IMG/VR virus record: IMGVR_UViG_3300030012_001251
Coordinates: 1-20,902 of that record
Source of the DNA: a virus
Strand: one strand, 5' to 3'
DNA: 20,902 bases
Made by a program: the position numbers and the translations under genes. Position 1 is the stretch's first letter, and every line of letters begins with the position of its first letter. Under the pieces are notes generated by a model. That model was not told the DNA's origin and made no database searches. It was given only the letters and a program-made list of their open reading frames with translations. This document shows positions 1,573-19,064 of the stretch, piece by piece.

Positions 1573-1678
1573 GTCAATCAACCTCACACTACAGTTGACG
1601 TTGCATGTTGATGTTTGGTTGACGGCATTGACGTTATGCTAACTAAGTTATTGTTTTTGCTAATAACCCCTAACGTCA
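1548..1678. repeat. Cluster of six TGACGT hexamers (iteron-like)
   Basis: TGACGT or its complement ACGTCA occurs at 1548, 1566, 1571, 1596, 1629 and 1673. Chance predicts about 0.07 copies in a stretch this long. Several copies extend to RTTGACGTTA, and degenerate versions (such as GTTGATGTTT) lie between them. The cluster covers the last codons of the primase-helicase gene and the gap after it. It could be an origin, an operator array or a coding by-product of Thr-Ser-rich codons. Confidence 0.5.
1555..1581 (-). promoter_or_regulatory. Weak promoter candidate before the SSB-tip gene
   Basis: On the minus strand, TTGATT (1581-1576) and TATAGT (1560-1555) resemble -35 and -10 boxes, matching 4/6 and 5/6 of the consensus. 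Spacing is only 15 bp, which is short for sigma70. The -10 box sits in the middle of the perfect palindrome. It would drive the SSB-tip, zinc-ribbon and gpZ-like genes. Alignment by eye only. Confidence 0.3.
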
Positions 1679-3485
1679 ACATGCGATCAACAAAGTGATA
1701 CCACCCACTCGCGCTGTATTTTTTGGAATTTCCCTGTTTATCCACTCTCAACTCGTTAACCCTGTCTCTCCAGACCTCATTTGGCACCCCTGATCCGTCA
1801 TTATTATCCACCCATTCACTACCATCAGCGATGATTTGCTCCAGTAAATTAAGCGCAAATATCTGATCTTTTGTGTACCGCTTCGGCGCATCCGGCTCAT
1901 CTGTTGCGTCCAAAACCAAGCTGGTTCGTTCCTCACCAAACCCTGATTGCACCCACGACACCTCTCTGGCAGTCAGCCATTGCGACTTTGCTTCTTCGAC
2001 ATCCTTTTGCTTGCGAACATGCAGCGCAACGCTCTGCGAACCCACTGTCTTGACCAGTTCAAACTCCGATGAAACAGCCGCTTTCAGACTTGAACTTCCG
2101 CGCATCCCTCGCTCTGTTTGCTTCCCGGAATGATGAACGACCAGAACCGTGCAATCAAAACGCTCAATCAGCAGATCAATATTATGCACGAACACGCCCA
2201 TATCCGTGCTGCTGTTCTCGTCTGCACCGACGAATGACCGGGCAAGCGTATCCACCACAATCATGGTCGGGTTCACACCACCCAAACCATCCTCGATGCC
2301 ATCCATAAGTGGCACCAAGTCACCCGCCTCATCTGCCAGTGATAATGGCGTTGTGACCGCATAGAAGGGCGCGTCAGTGTCTTTTAGCCCACGTTCCCTG
2401 TGCCATGCCTCAGATCGCGTTGCCAGCCCTGTCTGGCCTTCTAGGGCAAGATAAACGACACTGCCTTGGATAACTGGTCGCTCGTTCCAATCAACGCCAT
2501 GCGCCACTGATAACGCCCAATCTAGGGCTAGAAAACTTTTGTAGGATGCCGGAGCCCCAAAGAGTACTGCGAATGACTTGTCGATGATATATGGCGCAAC
2601 TTGATATGTCGGCGGTGGTGTTTGCCGTAATTCTTGCAGTGTCTTAAGAACAATCTTCCGTTGCCGTGGGTTAGCGTTTGCGCTCTCCACGGCTTCTTCC
2701 TTTTTTGGTGGCGCAGTTCCTAGATCACTAAAACCGCCCTCATGCGCCTTGCGTATCGTACTGATGCACTTGCGCTGGAACTCTGATATTCCGCGCCCAT
2801 CCTTTTCCAGATCACCTGACCGGGACACGACTTTGCTGGCATAAACTGGATAAACATTCTCGACCATCCACTTAAGCGTGGGATAGGTTTTGGTCTGCCT
2901 GTAATAGTCCCCGACTGACGCCATAATAATAGACGCCATATACTTCTCGCGCCCATCTGTGACCGACCCAAACTTGTCTAATTGATGACCACCCAAATCA
3001 TAAGTGACATCGGTAGCGATATCAGCCACGGCATCGGGGAAATCGCAAAACTCCTCGTTGTTAAGCCAACGATAACCAGCACTTTCTGGATGGATAACAT
3101 AGCCGCCATCACCACGGACATCCACGCACCCAGCAATGCCGGCGCGATTACGAATACCACTACGATGAAGATAGTAAAAATGCCATCCTCCACTAAGCGT
3201 CTGAGCGATCCTAGTATTGCCAAGAAGTTCTTGGTTATCTTCTTTCCATGCCTTGCCATTTTTATTGTCCCTAATATCAATGTCTATCACCGAAACGCCA
3301 CTCGCTTCGCCTGTTGGCATACCGATCAATGCAGCATTTGGCACACTGAATAGACGCTCAACCTCTGTCGGGTCTTGTGTTGCCGCTTTAAACCCACCCT
3401 CACAGACGGGTCGCTTCTTTACGTCACAGGGAAACACGGGGTATTCTTCCGCGACCTCTAACGCCTTGTTTATCAAATCCACCAT
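1584..3485 (-). CDS. Primase-polymerase / RecA-fold helicase fusion
   Basis: This is the phage replication initiator-type protein, about 633 aa. The N-terminal part (about residues 5-165) is a bifunctional primase-polymerase (prim-pol) domain: metal-binding VIDIDIRD near 67-74, SGGWHFYY near 98-105 and VDVRGDGGYVIHP near 121-133. After a linker (about 165-290) comes a RecA/RepA-like hexameric helicase domain (AAA_25 type). It has Walker A GAPASYKS near 310-317, where Tyr replaces the usual Gly before Lys, a VVYLALEG glutamate near 349, Walker B TMIVVDTLARS near 407-417, and VVHHSGK near 450. The ATG at 3485 is preferred; an in-frame GTG lies just before it. AGGG of the ribosome site overlaps the stop of the Mom-like gene, so the two are translationally linked. 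The protein is expected to prime and unwind phage DNA together with the neighbouring SSB-like and nuclease proteins. Confidence 0.9.
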   Translation of the reverse strand: MVDLINKALEVAEEYPVFPCDVKKRPVCEGGFKAATQDPTEVERLFSVPNAALIGMPTGEASGVSVIDIDIRDNKNGKAWKEDNQELLGNTRIAQTLSGGWHFYYLHRSGIRNRAGIAGCVDVRGDGGYVIHPESAGYRWLNNEEFCDFPDAVADIATDVTYDLGGHQLDKFGSVTDGREKYMASIIMASVGDYYRQTKTYPTLKWMVENVYPVYASKVVSRSGDLEKDGRGISEFQRKCISTIRKAHEGGFSDLGTAPPKKEEAVESANANPRQRKIVLKTLQELRQTPPPTYQVAPYIIDKSFAVLFGAPASYKSFLALDWALSVAHGVDWNERPVIQGSVVYLALEGQTGLATRSEAWHRERGLKDTDAPFYAVTTPLSLADEAGDLVPLMDGIEDGLGGVNPTMIVVDTLARSFVGADENSSTDMGVFVHNIDLLIERFDCTVLVVHHSGKQTERGMRGSSSLKAAVSSEFELVKTVGSQSVALHVRKQKDVEEAKSQWLTAREVSWVQSGFGEERTSLVLDATDEPDAPKRYTKDQIFALNLLEQIIADGSEWVDNNDGSGVPNEVWRDRVNELRVDKQGNSKKYSASGWYHFVDRMLTLGVISKNNNLVSITSMPSTKHQHATSTVV

Positions 3486-3498
3486 CACCTTATTCCCT
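3478..3498. repeat. 21-bp exact direct repeat, copy 1
   Basis: This stretch is identical, base for base, to 4116-4136. On the minus strand it reads AGGGAATAAGGTGATGG plus four further matching bases. It covers the ribosome binding site, three overlapping start triplets (GTG ATG GTG) and the first codons of the primase-helicase gene. Confidence 0.85.
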
Positions 3499-4123
3499 AA
3501 AAAAGCAAAATTTGCGTTTCTACACTGTCACCAGCTTCATAGGTTTTGCTCTCCCCCTTTGGATATGGTTGTGCTTCATAACGCAACTGACTCCGTAAAT
3601 CTTTTTTTTGCCGCTTATTACCGACAAAGTTCACATATCGGTGCTTGCGTGGCCTATCGACCAAATCTTTGCCCCAATGACCGCGTGAATGTCGTGCTAA
3701 TTTGCCGCCACTTGTGTCAAACCCAACGGGGTCTTTTCTCTTTGCTGATAGCCCAGTGTATATAAAATTTGTTGCTTGATAGACATAACCAATATGCCCC
3801 GCCTTCGTGTCTGCATAACTGACAATGATCTTTGGCGGCGGCAATAGCTTCATTGATCTGGCAATAAGTATTGATGCCATATTCTTTTCATTGCTATCCA
3901 GACAAAGTCTATTCAATTCCAAAACATCCAATGCGTGTTCTTCTCCACACACGCCACGCGCAAGGTGTGGCGAAGCTGGTGCGCCGTAGCTGATTACGCC
4001 GATCAAATAATTGTTTTCATACAAACCAAAAGCAAACATGATTAACGGCATCCGCTTCATGTAATGTTTTTGCAGAAACCATTGTCGCGTTTCTTCTGAT
4101 TTAATTGGCAAAACTTCCACCAT
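3497..4123 (-). CDS. mom: Mom-like adenine modification enzyme (GNAT fold)
   Basis: A 208-aa protein strongly resembling the Mom family, named for phage Mu Mom, which turns adenine in phage DNA into a methylcarbamoyl derivative and so protects it from restriction. Family-like segments are QKHYMKRMP near residue 18, FAFGLYENNYLIGVISYG near 30-47, RGVCGEEHALDVLELNRLCLD near 56-76, then IIVSYADTKAGHIGYVYQ near 99-116 followed by ATNFIYTGLSAKR to about 129, where a GNAT-type acetyl-CoA fold is expected. The basic tail RPRKHRYVNFVGNKRQKK (from about 158) and a YPKGES stretch are also usual in the family. The ATG at 4123 is preceded by AGGGAATAAGGTG; a GTG at 4126 is the alternative. It sits between the SSB-like and primase-helicase genes, unlike the late, isolated mom of Mu, and no Com-like zinc regulator lies next to it. 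Function is by family resemblance only. Confidence 0.85.
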   Translation of the reverse strand: MVEVLPIKSEETRQWFLQKHYMKRMPLIMFAFGLYENNYLIGVISYGAPASPHLARGVCGEEHALDVLELNRLCLDSNEKNMASILIARSMKLLPPPKIIVSYADTKAGHIGYVYQATNFIYTGLSAKRKDPVGFDTSGGKLARHSRGHWGKDLVDRPRKHRYVNFVGNKRQKKDLRSQLRYEAQPYPKGESKTYEAGDSVETQILLF

Positions 4124-4136
4124 CACCTTATTCCCT
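4116..4136. repeat. 21-bp exact direct repeat, copy 2
   Basis: Identical to 3478-3498. It covers the ribosome binding site and first codons of the Mom-like gene. Identity ends just outside the initiation region on both sides (AAA before AGGG here, TTTTT at the other copy). Confidence 0.85.
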
Positions 4137-8791: not shown

Positions 8792-8956
8792 TTAAGATTT
8801 AGCTTGCGCCTTTGGCTGCGGAGCAAAGTATTTCTGCTTGTACCAGTCGGCAAACTTCGGCTCCTCACGAAACAGGATCATCATATCGCCAAGCGGCATT
8901 TGCTCTGACCTAATAATCTGAGCGTGTTGCTCAAACTCTTTTTCAGTGGTCATCAT
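8792..8956 (-). CDS. Unknown 54-aa protein after the endolysin
   Basis: A short frame of 54 aa beginning MMTTEKEFEQHAQIIRSEQM and ending PQPKAQAKS. It is helical and charged, with a FADWYKQKYF segment near residues 35-44, and has no membrane segment. Its ATG overlaps the stop of the M15 peptidase gene in an ATGATGA arrangement, which implies coupled translation. A second ATG follows directly. Codon quality and the overlap support it. Its role may be lysis timing or something unrelated. Confidence 0.65.
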   Translation of the reverse strand: MMTTEKEFEQHAQIIRSEQMPLGDMMILFREEPKFADWYKQKYFAPQPKAQAKS

Positions 8957-9431: not shown

Positions 9432-9815
9432 TTACTTTTTTCCGCGTATCATCCCGATAGACTTGAAGCCAAACGATGCAGCCACAATAGACATGAATGT
9501 GTAAGTCAGCCAATCAGGTGCTGCGTTCAGTCTTTCATACGCATGGTCATAATAATCATCAAGAAACGGCGCAAAATTTCCGATGAACCAAAGCCCGAAA
9601 ATTACGCTGAAAAATTCGTCCTTCCACGATCCGTCCGTGGCATCAGCTTGCGACTTCTGTATATCTATCTCGCCAGCAGCCACCCGCTTTGATATCTCCG
9701 CGTCTGCTTCTACCTTGGCGACCTTGGCTTGCACCTTCGCCTTAGATACAGCCGCTCGGCTTTCCATATAGTTGCCGACAATCCCCGCGAGTGGTGTTAC
9801 TAAATTAGCCCACAT
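9432..9815 (-). CDS. Holin-like membrane protein
   Basis: A 127-aa protein with an N-terminal short hydrophobic stretch (NLVTPLAGIVGNY), an Ala/Lys-rich helix (about 20-60), then two membrane segments: FFSVIFGLWFIGNFAPFL (about 68-85) and WLTYTFMSIVAASFGFKSIG (about 101-120). SWKDEFF before the first segment and PDWL before the second match a pattern I know from small putative holins next to M15 endolysins in marine phages, related in plan to GTA 3TM holins. It ends RGKK. It is next to the endolysin, which supports a hole-forming role. The assignment is by topology and position. Confidence 0.6.
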   Translation of the reverse strand: MWANLVTPLAGIVGNYMESRAAVSKAKVQAKVAKVEADAEISKRVAAGEIDIQKSQADATDGSWKDEFFSVIFGLWFIGNFAPFLDDYYDHAYERLNAAPDWLTYTFMSIVAASFGFKSIGMIRGKK

Positions 9816-16487: not shown

Positions 16488-18185
16488 TCAGCCCCCAAAC
16501 GCTTTACTAAACGACCCGCCCCGCAGTCTGCTATCAGCCACGGCTGCTTTGGTTGCATTGGCAATTTGTGGCATCAGGTTCACTATTTCAGAACGGACTG
16601 TTTGCTGAACGCCTGTGGTGACGTTGATGGTCTGGTTCACTGTTATGCCGCCACCGCCTCCAACACCCGCAGCAGCCAACGCTTTATTGCTAACGATTGA
16701 ACCTGATGATGACGGTACAAAGAGTTCTTTTCCCATTTCCCCGACGATCCTTGGAACGCCGCGTTGAACAGGCCCGCCTATCGCAGTGACTTTTGCTGGA
16801 GCTGCACTCCCTGTTGAGCCACCCCCCAAAAAGCCACCTAAAGCTGCCGCTATTGGCCCACTTATTTGTTGTTGGATAACGATCCTAGCAATATCAGCGA
16901 GAATTGATTGCGCCATTGATCGAAACGCTTCCTTTGCACTTTCCGCGCCTGTGACAATATTAACAAGACTATCCTCAAGGGCTTTCACGCCCCTCAACGC
17001 CGCGCTTTCTGTGCTTGCCTGTACATCTTCTGCGGCTTTGGCGTAATCTTTCAAAGCCTGTTGGCCTTCGGAAAGTTTTTCGCTTGTGTTTCCGATGCCT
17101 TCCAAAACTTTATTCAGTTCGGTGTTCAGTTCTTCAATCGTTTTGGCCGCGCCGCCATCCTCTTTCCCAGCCGATTGTGCAGTTGCCTTCAGTCGTTCAC
17201 TTAATTCAGCGAGACTAAAAATTGTGTCGCTAAAATCAATTTTTGCAACACCCGGCAACTTTGCAAGCGCGTCTGTGAACGATTGCAACGCAAGAACGGC
17301 ATCAGTCGCCGCACCAACTATTTTCGACGACAAATCAGCCGCGAAAGCCGTTATGCCGCCTGATCCCTGTTGCAATATCTCTGTTAAAAAGTTCACCGCG
17401 CCAGCTAATTTTCTGCCGATTGCTTCTGCAACATCGGGGCTGTTTCTTAACAATGTTGATAAGGCGCGCGAGAAATCATTAATTGATTTGTTAAAGCCAG
17501 CATCACCAATCGCTGTTTTGAAGGCGTCAAACGCATCACCCAGATTGCTAAATGCACCGCTTAGAGTTCTAGCCTGTTCTGCCGTTGCCCCAGCAAACTC
17601 CGTCTGACCAAGACTAACAAGAAAGCCTTGTATTTCTTCCGCAGTATTTTTTACTTCTGTTTGAACCCCGCCAAAAGTGAACGTGATCCGTTCACCCTCT
17701 TTGCTGGCCTTGATGCCAAACTCTTTCAGTCTTTCAAATTCGCCTTGCACGGCATCTGTCACTGCCTCTGAGAACTGTTGCAAAGATTTGCCAGAGCCGC
17801 TTGCGATATTACCAAAGGCATCGAGCGCAGTAATGGATGGCTGGATGCCCTGCGCTATGAGAATGTTGAAACTTTTTGTGACTTCCTGAACACTAAACGG
17901 TGTCTGGGCTGCAAACTGTTTCAGAACATCAAAAGCACCCGCCGCCCTTTCAGACGAGCCTAGAAAAGTTTTGAGCGTGGCTTCAAGTGATTGAAACTGC
18001 CTATTTGTTTCAATCGTTGATTTAACCAACAACCCAAAACCAGCCGCACCAGCCAAACCCGTGATTGCTGTTTTTGTGTTAAAAACAGTTTTTCTAATAG
18101 CCCCAAGACCGGCATTTACAGTTCGGAAGGCAGCGCGCGTCTTGTCAAACGCTCTTATGCGGATATTAAGATTTTCTTGCGCCAT
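16488..18185 (-). CDS. Tail tape measure protein
   Basis: A 565-aa protein that sets tail length and is ejected with the DNA. N-terminal helices (about 1-60) include TAITGLAGAAGFGLLVKS, followed by a globular Phe/Gln/Ser-rich part (about 65-230: AAQTPFSVQEVTKSFNILIA). Long Ala/Glu helices run to about 400. A lambda-H-like C-terminal piece follows, AFRSMAQSILADIARIVIQQ (about 418-437), then a Gly/Ala region with VGEMGKELFVPSS (about 478). Start is the ATG at 18185 with GGAG 7 nt upstream; the frameshifted chaperone ends 20 nt inside this gene. By the rule of roughly 0.15 nm per residue the tail would be about 85 nm, a short-to-medium siphovirus tail. Confidence 0.9.
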   Translation of the reverse strand: MAQENLNIRIRAFDKTRAAFRTVNAGLGAIRKTVFNTKTAITGLAGAAGFGLLVKSTIETNRQFQSLEATLKTFLGSSERAAGAFDVLKQFAAQTPFSVQEVTKSFNILIAQGIQPSITALDAFGNIASGSGKSLQQFSEAVTDAVQGEFERLKEFGIKASKEGERITFTFGGVQTEVKNTAEEIQGFLVSLGQTEFAGATAEQARTLSGAFSNLGDAFDAFKTAIGDAGFNKSINDFSRALSTLLRNSPDVAEAIGRKLAGAVNFLTEILQQGSGGITAFAADLSSKIVGAATDAVLALQSFTDALAKLPGVAKIDFSDTIFSLAELSERLKATAQSAGKEDGGAAKTIEELNTELNKVLEGIGNTSEKLSEGQQALKDYAKAAEDVQASTESAALRGVKALEDSLVNIVTGAESAKEAFRSMAQSILADIARIVIQQQISGPIAAALGGFLGGGSTGSAAPAKVTAIGGPVQRGVPRIVGEMGKELFVPSSSGSIVSNKALAAAGVGGGGGITVNQTINVTTGVQQTVRSEIVNLMPQIANATKAAVADSRLRGGSFSKAFGG

Positions 18186-18653
18186 CAACGATCTCCAAGT
18201 ATGCCAGCCAGCTTATAAGTTCATTATATGGCAAACATTCGATCTCCGCGATTGTTTTGTTTAAGCGATCAGCTAGGCCGTACATAACAAACAAAAACTG
18301 ATCGCTTCTTAGTTTTTTTCTGCGTCCTCTACGTTATTAAGAGTACCCATCAACTTGCTTGCCACATCACCCACGATTGTAAGGGGCTGACGCATAAGGA
18401 TAGGCTTGTCACCAACGTCAAAAGCCTTGTCGCCTTGATCGGTTTCGGCCTTCATAATTATTAGATCAACCAGTGCTTCAATCGTCTGATTATTTAAAAA
18501 GTCGGGATGCTTTTTTTGCAGTTTATTGAACTCGCCGCAAAGCAGTTCGCCAGCATATAAAACAAGCGGCTCATCATCGCCCCATTCTGCCACTTCGATG
18601 CGTGTGCGTTCAGTGGACGTTTTAGCCCTGATTTGTTCGCCAAGTTTAGACAT
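18166..18653 (-). CDS. Frameshifted tail chaperone (gpGT-like), -1 product
   Basis: A 162-aa product made when ribosomes slip back one base at 18318-18312 while reading the 114-aa chaperone gene. The first 114 residues are shared. Reading then continues from CTA at 18312 for 48 residues (LRSDQFLFVMYGLADRLNKT, then IAEIECLPYNELISWLAYLE, ending IVDGARKS) to a TAA at 18168-18166. The tail resembles the T part of lambda gpGT and its relatives: a helix, an AEI-x-x-LP turn and a W-LAY helix, which binds tape measure and tube proteins. The extension fills the otherwise empty 18189-18308 and reaches just into the tape measure gene, as in lambda. Confidence 0.85.
18263..18318 (-). promoter_or_regulatory. 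-1 programmed frameshift signal: slippery site and stem-loop
   Basis: The heptamer A AAA AAC (18318-18312, zero frame GAA AAA AAC TAA) is one of the most efficient -1 slippery sites of bacteria. After 4 nt comes a perfect 10-bp stem: AAGCGATCAG (18307-18298) pairs with CTGATCGCTT (18272-18263) around a 25-nt loop. The zero-frame stop directly follows the heptamer. Together these are the standard elements for ribosomal pausing and slippage. Confidence 0.85.
18309..18653 (-). CDS. Tail assembly chaperone (gpG-like), unshifted product
   Basis: A 114-aa protein in the gpG position between the tail tube and tape measure genes. It includes TRIEVAEWGDDEPLVLYAGE (about 17-36), a LCGEFNKLQKKHPDF helix and a EALVDLIIMKAETDQ helix, typical of small acidic chaperones that keep tape measure soluble. 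AGAGG lies 7 nt before the ATG. It stops at 18309, immediately after the slippery heptamer, and a fraction of ribosomes would continue in the -1 frame. Confidence 0.85.
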   Translation of the reverse strand: MSKLGEQIRAKTSTERTRIEVAEWGDDEPLVLYAGELLCGEFNKLQKKHPDFLNNQTIEALVDLIIMKAETDQGDKAFDVGDKPILMRQPLTIVGDVASKLMGTLNNVEDAEKN

Positions 18654-18677: not shown

Positions 18678-19064
18678 TTAAACGGTTGTTTCAGTAATCC
18701 CGCCAGTTCCTTGCGCTGAAAATGCGACTTCGACCATGCCATCAAAACTAGATGTCACTGTTTTACCCGTCACAATCACTGTGCCACTAAAATATGTGTC
18801 ACCAGATGCCGCGCCTTCTGGATAAAGTTCCAGCGTAAGCTGCGAACCAACGTCTAAGGCGTTTTGCGCCGTATCAGTCTCGTCAAAAAAACATTCGACG
18901 GATGCAGTGAACACTTGCAAACCGGGTTTAAAGCTACGAAAGCTGTCGCCCATGCTTGTGTCCTCAATGACTTCACCGCTTATTTCAAGCGAAAAAGACC
19001 TTATTTCTCCGAGAGTGTTCCCGCCGACTTTGACAGTCCCCTCGCTCCCTGCGTGTGTTGCCAT
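18678..19064 (-). CDS. Major tail (tube) protein
   Basis: A 128-aa beta-rich tube protein of the lambda gpV / TP901-1 MTP type. Signature parts: GTVKVGGNTLGEIRSFSLEI (about 9-28), then SGEVIEDTSMGDSFRSFKPG (about 29-48), where the strand-loop-strand pattern is typical, and a C-terminal beta strand GMVEVAFSAQGTGGITETTV. It has no extra Ig-like domain, and its length is normal for a minimal tube protein. GAGG lies 8 nt before the ATG at 19064. It polymerises in hexamer rings on the tape measure. Confidence 0.88.
   Translation of the reverse strand: MATHAGSEGTVKVGGNTLGEIRSFSLEISGEVIEDTSMGDSFRSFKPGLQVFTASVECFFDETDTAQNALDVGSQLTLELYPEGAASGDTYFSGTVIVTGKTVTSSFDGMVEVAFSAQGTGGITETTV

Follow-up and report, generated by a model that had tools for sequence, protein, structure and literature searches.

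A virus record of IMG/VR, 20,902 bases long and in its entirety referred to here as the window, carries a tail assembly chaperone gene whose end raises a question: do all ribosomes stop there, or do some shift into the -1 frame and add a second domain to the chaperone? Frameshifting of this type in tail chaperone genes is textbook knowledge and has been known since lambda, where the slippery heptamer is G_GGA_AAG. The kind is also known from a survey by Xu, Hendrix and Duda published in 2004. Judged by the comparison of related loci presented below, the window almost certainly contains a programmed -1 ribosomal frameshift site in the tail assembly chaperone gene.

Layout of the chaperone locus

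The entire frameshift locus was found on the minus strand, where the genes follow each other in the order major capsid protein (end only), head-tail joining proteins, tail terminator, tail tube, G, tape measure, distal tail and baseplate proteins, and fibres (Table 1). Two overlapping frames, termed G for the first part of the chaperone and T for the extension in the -1 frame, were located between the tail tube and tape measure genes, which is the arrangement of a G/GT pair. A preliminary description had claimed that the 114-aa chaperone gene ends in GAA AAA AAC TAA with A_AAA_AAC directly before the stop, that the heptamer is followed 4 nt later by a perfect 10-bp stem, and that the -1 frame stays open for 48 codons. 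Every coordinate given there was confirmed when the sequence was read again, i.e., the heptamer at 18318..18312, the ten perfect pairs between AAGCGATCAG (18307..18298) and CTGATCGCTT (18272..18263), and the open frame at 18312..18169 with its stop at 18168..18166. The further claim that this frame accounts for 120 bp without a gene also stood: no separate gene was present in the 120 bp that separate the G stop from a TTG at 18188. The tape measure ATG at 18182 falls within the last codons of the T frame. If slippage comes after decoding of AAC, the GT fusion is 162 aa long.

Table 1. Features of the chaperone locus and of a second heptamer site in the window.
Feature	Position	Strand	Basis or remark
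Major tail (tube) protein	18678..19064	-	directly upstream of G; match to phrog_1407 (major tail protein) with E 1.3e-13
G part, 114-aa tail assembly chaperone	18309..18653 (including stop TAA)	-	open reading frame; phrog_344; AlphaFold model compared to 2OB9
GAGG, possible internal Shine-Dalgarno stimulator	18326..18329	-	7 nt before heptamer; GAG codon bias
Slippery heptamer A_AAA_AAC	18312..18318	-	0 nt before G stop; read directly
G stop TAA	18311..18309	-	end of GAA AAA AAC TAA
Predicted stimulatory stem-loop	18263..18307	-	fold z, covariation, protein-preserving recoding test
T part, 48 codons in -1 frame, LRSDQFLF...DGARKS	18169..18312	-	open frame, purifying selection, phrog_337, three-helix model
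T frame stop codon	18166..18168	-	
Tape measure protein	16488..18182	-	PF20155 TMP_3 and PF09718; phrog_1716, E 5.5e-62
Second site, heptamer A_AAA_AAG	9435-9441	-	directly before stop of 127-aa membrane protein 9432-9815 (phrog_2524), ending GGA AAA AAG TAA

Slippery heptamer, upstream motif and downstream hairpin

A search with the G protein identified 62 viral loci that were 35 to 98% identical, and searches with the G and T alignments gave 160 further loci, partly on the same contigs as the first 62. Removal of duplicates left 154 distinct loci with a T domain. All 154 had a slippery heptamer in the zero frame, and in 153 of them it was located 7 or 10 nt upstream of the G stop; in the exception, L102, the zero frame happens to extend past the usual place of the stop. 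The heptamer was AAAAAAC in 99+2 loci (plus L102), AAAAAAG in 22+3, GGGAAAC in 20, AAAAAAA in five, CCCAAAC in one and AAAGGGC in one, and all natural variants retained the X_XXY_YYZ form. The rare heptamers A_AAG_GGC and C_CCA_AAC, in L099 and L126, were found at the equivalent place and both were accompanied by a hairpin. Within the window A_AAA_AAC occurs seven times on the two strands together, and G and one other gene were the only two of 30 genes examined with a heptamer in frame no more than 30 nt from the stop. Because the heptamer, the open -1 frame, the selection on it and the hairpin are conserved in relatives, it is very unlikely that the arrangement arose by chance.

The same fusion could be obtained if RNA polymerase added an extra A on the run of seven A and the altered mRNA was translated normally. 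Seven A in a row are indeed present at the site in the window, as they are in 89 of the 99 loci with AAAAAAC at -7. In L105, L106, and L120 (heptamer region at about 1501) the run is ten A long and has no downstream hairpin (z -0.9 to 0.2), as expected for transcriptional slippage there, and it is possible that these three have switched to it. However, the 20 distinct loci with GGGAAAC and the one with CCCAAAC have runs of only 3-4 at the equivalent place, and ribosomal slippage is therefore favored over transcriptional slippage. The downstream hairpin, selected as RNA (see below), would moreover not yet have formed while the polymerase is on the A run. We consider transcriptional slippage a very improbable explanation of the site.

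A motif upstream of the ribosomal slippage site had been overlooked in the preliminary description. A Glu codon lies 11 nt upstream of the heptamer, and it was found to be GAG in 89 of 102 cases, compared to 528 of 1500 (35%) elsewhere in the same genes; weighted by cluster, the ratio was 27:7 in favor of GAG compared to 41% (p 6e-6). Together with the next G it forms GAGG, which resembles a Shine-Dalgarno (SD) sequence and has no start codon in reach. Stimulation of the -1 shift by an internal SD sequence is known from dnaX. Here the spacing is 7 nt when counted to the heptamer and 11 nt when counted to the second zero-frame codon of the heptamer, and the spacing reported for internal SD sequences in -1 shifts is 9-14 nt (PMC5009743). 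An anti-SD energy test gave a modest result, with four of 32 clusters in the lowest 10%. We regard GAGG as a probable, albeit unproven, internal SD stimulator of frameshifting.

Downstream of the heptamer, the 10-bp stem extends to 12 pairs via one G-U and one A-U pair. The hairpin of the window has a minimum free energy of -17.7 kcal/mol (z -3.7), and two of 200 shuffled sequences were equally good. In the homologous loci the 52 nt past the heptamer had a median fold z of -4.26 with 81% of loci below -3, compared to medians of -0.49, -0.81, and -0.20 with 3-10% below -3 for three control regions from the same loci. Synonymous recoding with codons from each locus's own genes gave a mean of -10.4 kcal/mol compared to -21.3 kcal/mol for the real sequences (median z -3.8). 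Since recoding halved the stability, the stem is not a by-product of the protein sequence. The median z was still -3.8 for 47 clusters at 75% identity.

Pairing was also followed in an alignment of 88 distinct rows that have the heptamer at -7. Here 78.6% of the cells pair in the register of the window, compared to 28-45% in slid registers, and 124 cells were altered on both sides compared to 52 in shuffles, a comparison which is inflated by relatedness. Compensatory changes included one pair found as C-G (39), A-U (29) or U-A (7) and another found as G-C (30), C-G (19) or A-U (10). In the 22 nearest relatives, core pairs switch from A-U to G-C or from G-C to C-G, and few cells, if any, are broken. 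Other lineages build the stem from different partners (registers 52, 36, 55, 44, and 30); thus, it is having a stem that is kept, and not one particular stem. The start of the hairpin is held about 3-8 nt from the heptamer across several pairing registers. On these comparative grounds, selection acts on the hairpin as RNA. Two cultured relatives, CRP-406 and CRP-811, have no convincing hairpin (z 1.0 and 0.5), which counts against the frameshift reading. Class means suggest a rule of weaker heptamer, stronger hairpin, and are confounded by relatedness. A search of Rfam gave no family at the hairpin region. A pseudoknot of nine pairs between the loop TTTTGTTTG and TAAACAAAA after the stem (18255-18296, minus strand) was considered and rejected; it was found in the nearest relatives only, pairs a T-rich with an A-rich coding stretch and has no compensatory changes.

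A stable stem between two genes could also terminate transcription or serve in mRNA processing rather than stimulate frameshifting. The stem is, however, followed by AAACAAAACAAT and no U run, and it forms part of a coding frame, with the essential tape measure gene downstream of it. The narrow range of distances between its start and the heptamer also speaks against such a function, which we find extremely improbable.

The T frame, the identity of G and the proposed mechanism

Homologues without an open -1 frame had been named beforehand as evidence that would speak against frameshifting, but none of the 154 distinct loci lacked the frame, which was 40-61 codons long and most often 48-50. In the part after the stem, single-base codon changes between near relatives were 81 synonymous to 25 non-synonymous in the T frame, compared to 18:79 and 15:90 in the other two frames. 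By this measure the T frame is coding and under purifying selection. The T consensus is L-x-x-D...ALADRLxKTIxEIE...ELxEWxAYF, with conservation of residues starting at the first codons (L and D). All 22 aligned T members matched phrog_337 (tail protein; best E 5.5e-7). The structure model of T has three helices (pLDDT 82) and gave no match to PDB structures, and no Pfam match was found for G or T. The peptides quoted for T in the preliminary description are not whole tryptic peptides; the whole ones would be SDQFLFVMYGLADR and TIAEIECLPYNELISWLAYLEIVDGAR.

We give practically no credence to the reading that T is a small gene in its own right, started at a codon of its own, and that the heptamer is incidental: T codon 10 of the window is an in-frame ATG and 79 of the 154 loci have an ATG within the first 20 codons, but 75 have none, the codon position of the ATG varies, a start codon of any kind with an SD-like motif is present in only 33 of the 154 loci, and both the first T codons and, everywhere, the heptamer are kept. 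Internal starts in T, which were at differing places and mostly without an SD sequence, were rejected as candidates. The T frame was found to be kept as protein without a conserved start of its own, in agreement with a G/GT pair.

The G part could be assigned more closely. The tail assembly chaperone family phrog_344 was matched by 21 of 23 G family members. The AlphaFold model of G (pLDDT 86) had the HK97 tail assembly chaperone 2OB9 as its best PDB match in Foldseek (prob 1.00, E 4.3e-3, TM 0.53-0.56, rmsd 4.7 Å), a distant match of HK97-type fold, and the viral structure models matching G included several annotated tail assembly chaperones. Profile comparison of G to lambda gpG (hhalign) gave a probability of 5%, i.e., no detectable homology to the lambda gpG family, and a sequence search of PDB with G found no relative with a solved structure. 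Because of the fold match to 2OB9 and the lack of profile homology to lambda gpG, G was placed with the HK97-type chaperones by fold. The label lambda-type gpGT, used in the preliminary description, fits the gene position and mechanism, whereas the protein itself resembles the HK97-type chaperone more. By the fold of its model G is an HK97-type chaperone, and in its working it would be lambda gpG/gpGT-like.

We propose that most ribosomes would terminate at the G stop and produce a chaperone of 114 aa. The downstream hairpin, and perhaps also pairing of GAGG with 16S rRNA upstream, would slow a minority of ribosomes, which would slip back one base on A_AAA_AAC, bypass the G stop and append the 48-residue T domain; the slippage itself we infer from sequence. 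For lambda it is established that the G part attaches to the tape measure protein and T to the tube protein, and that the chaperone is absent from the virion; the G:GT ratio there is about 30:1 (PMC5009743). By analogy, G and the G part of GT would be expected to coat the tape measure protein, while T would be expected to recruit tail tube protein, with the tube polymerizing to the length set by the tape measure. The frameshift level is expected, also by analogy, to be a few per cent; for two chaperone genes of the HK97-like cluster, experiments showed frameshifting of 6 and 7% (PMC3711429). A point against the proposed site is that in E. coli A_AAA_AAC slips much less readily than A_AAA_AAG (PMC5009743). 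A more elaborate reading is that GAGG, heptamer and covarying hairpin form a full dnaX-like three-part signal, that hairpin strength is tuned against heptamer slipperiness, which would hold the G:GT ratio constant as the heptamer evolves, and that a few members have swapped to A10 without a hairpin and possibly use transcriptional slippage. We hold this only tentatively and consider it doubtful as a whole.

Comparison to known systems and a second candidate site

Compared to the HK97-type chaperone, the locus has the same fold of the first part, gene order, predicted frameshift near the end of the first ORF and C-terminal extension, whereas a PDB search detected no sequence homology. HK97 also has an intervening gene before the tape measure gene (PMC3483164), whereas here T directly precedes it. 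Like lambda gpG/gpGT, the pair is located between the tail tube and tape measure genes, would use a -1 shift to extend G into GT and has a T frame that overlaps the tape measure start; lambda T is, however, about three times longer (435-nt T ORF), and G is not related by profile. Burkholderia phage KL1 gp18/gp19 has GGGAAAC immediately before the stop and a downstream stem-loop predicted by mfold (PMC3483164), but belongs to another sequence family and is a prediction from a single genome without covariation evidence. The haloarchaeal virus HCTV-2 has the same A_AAA_AAC in the same kind of gene (PMC5009743), but differs in its archaeal host and family. The three-part layout of internal SD (here putative), A-rich heptamer and downstream hairpin is that of E. 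coli dnaX, which is a different gene with A_AAA_AAG. Heptamer and hairpin are both present here, as is the GAG bias, with the SD-like motif 7 nt from the heptamer compared to the 9-14 nt quoted (PMC5009743).

Cultured counterparts are the CRP-822-type roseophages (PV211008-PV211014), where G is 37-43% identical, the gene order is the same, A_AAA_AAC is located at the stop and the T frame is open; the hairpin, in contrast, is weak or absent. In the three records examined T is unannotated and a gap of 138 nt is left between G and the tape measure gene, and frameshifting is not mentioned in the paper describing these phages (PMC12629253). In Pelagibacter phage HTVC111P (MN698245.1, 3394-3546) the annotation places a hypothetical gene, gp45, across the T region but on the other strand, and it may be spurious since the -1 T frame was found there. 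The kind of frameshift is known; the family in roseophage-like marine phages is unannotated and the comparative evidence for it is unusually strong. A literature search in a limited collection found no paper with covariation evidence for such a tail-chaperone frameshift hairpin. The analysis gives a marine phage family, including cultured roseophages whose records lack T, an unannotated protein that is predicted to be essential. With different heptamers and re-invented hairpins, the roughly 150 sequences represent a natural experiment in keeping a frameshift ratio while the signal evolves.

The control count of heptamers near stops also brought up the second site in Table 1. The -1 frame after A_AAA_AAG enters an M15 endolysin (PF08291), whose ORF ends at 8953. 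In 18 related loci examined, from about eight lineages, A_AAA_AAG and a KKVx[AST]P motif just after the slip were kept (KKEVTP in L270). L274 has no ATG, GTG or TTG from the heptamer to the endolysin core, and in L271, L273, and L283 the sole start candidate is a GTG two codons after KK. In L359 and L360, which are without the heptamer, the endolysin ATG overlaps the stop, and in the window translation of the endolysin could also begin at a GTG that has an SD-like AAAGG. The sequences suggest a candidate programmed frameshift that would make a membrane-anchored endolysin, and the titles and abstracts covered by the literature search describe none made in this way; the site looks more unusual than that of the tail chaperone. 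Elsewhere on the minus strand, this small marine phage carries a Prim-Pol fused to an AAA_25 ATPase domain (1587-3488) and a Mom-family protein (3500-4126; PF25680, E 2.2e-35) related to the DNA modification protein of phage Mu.
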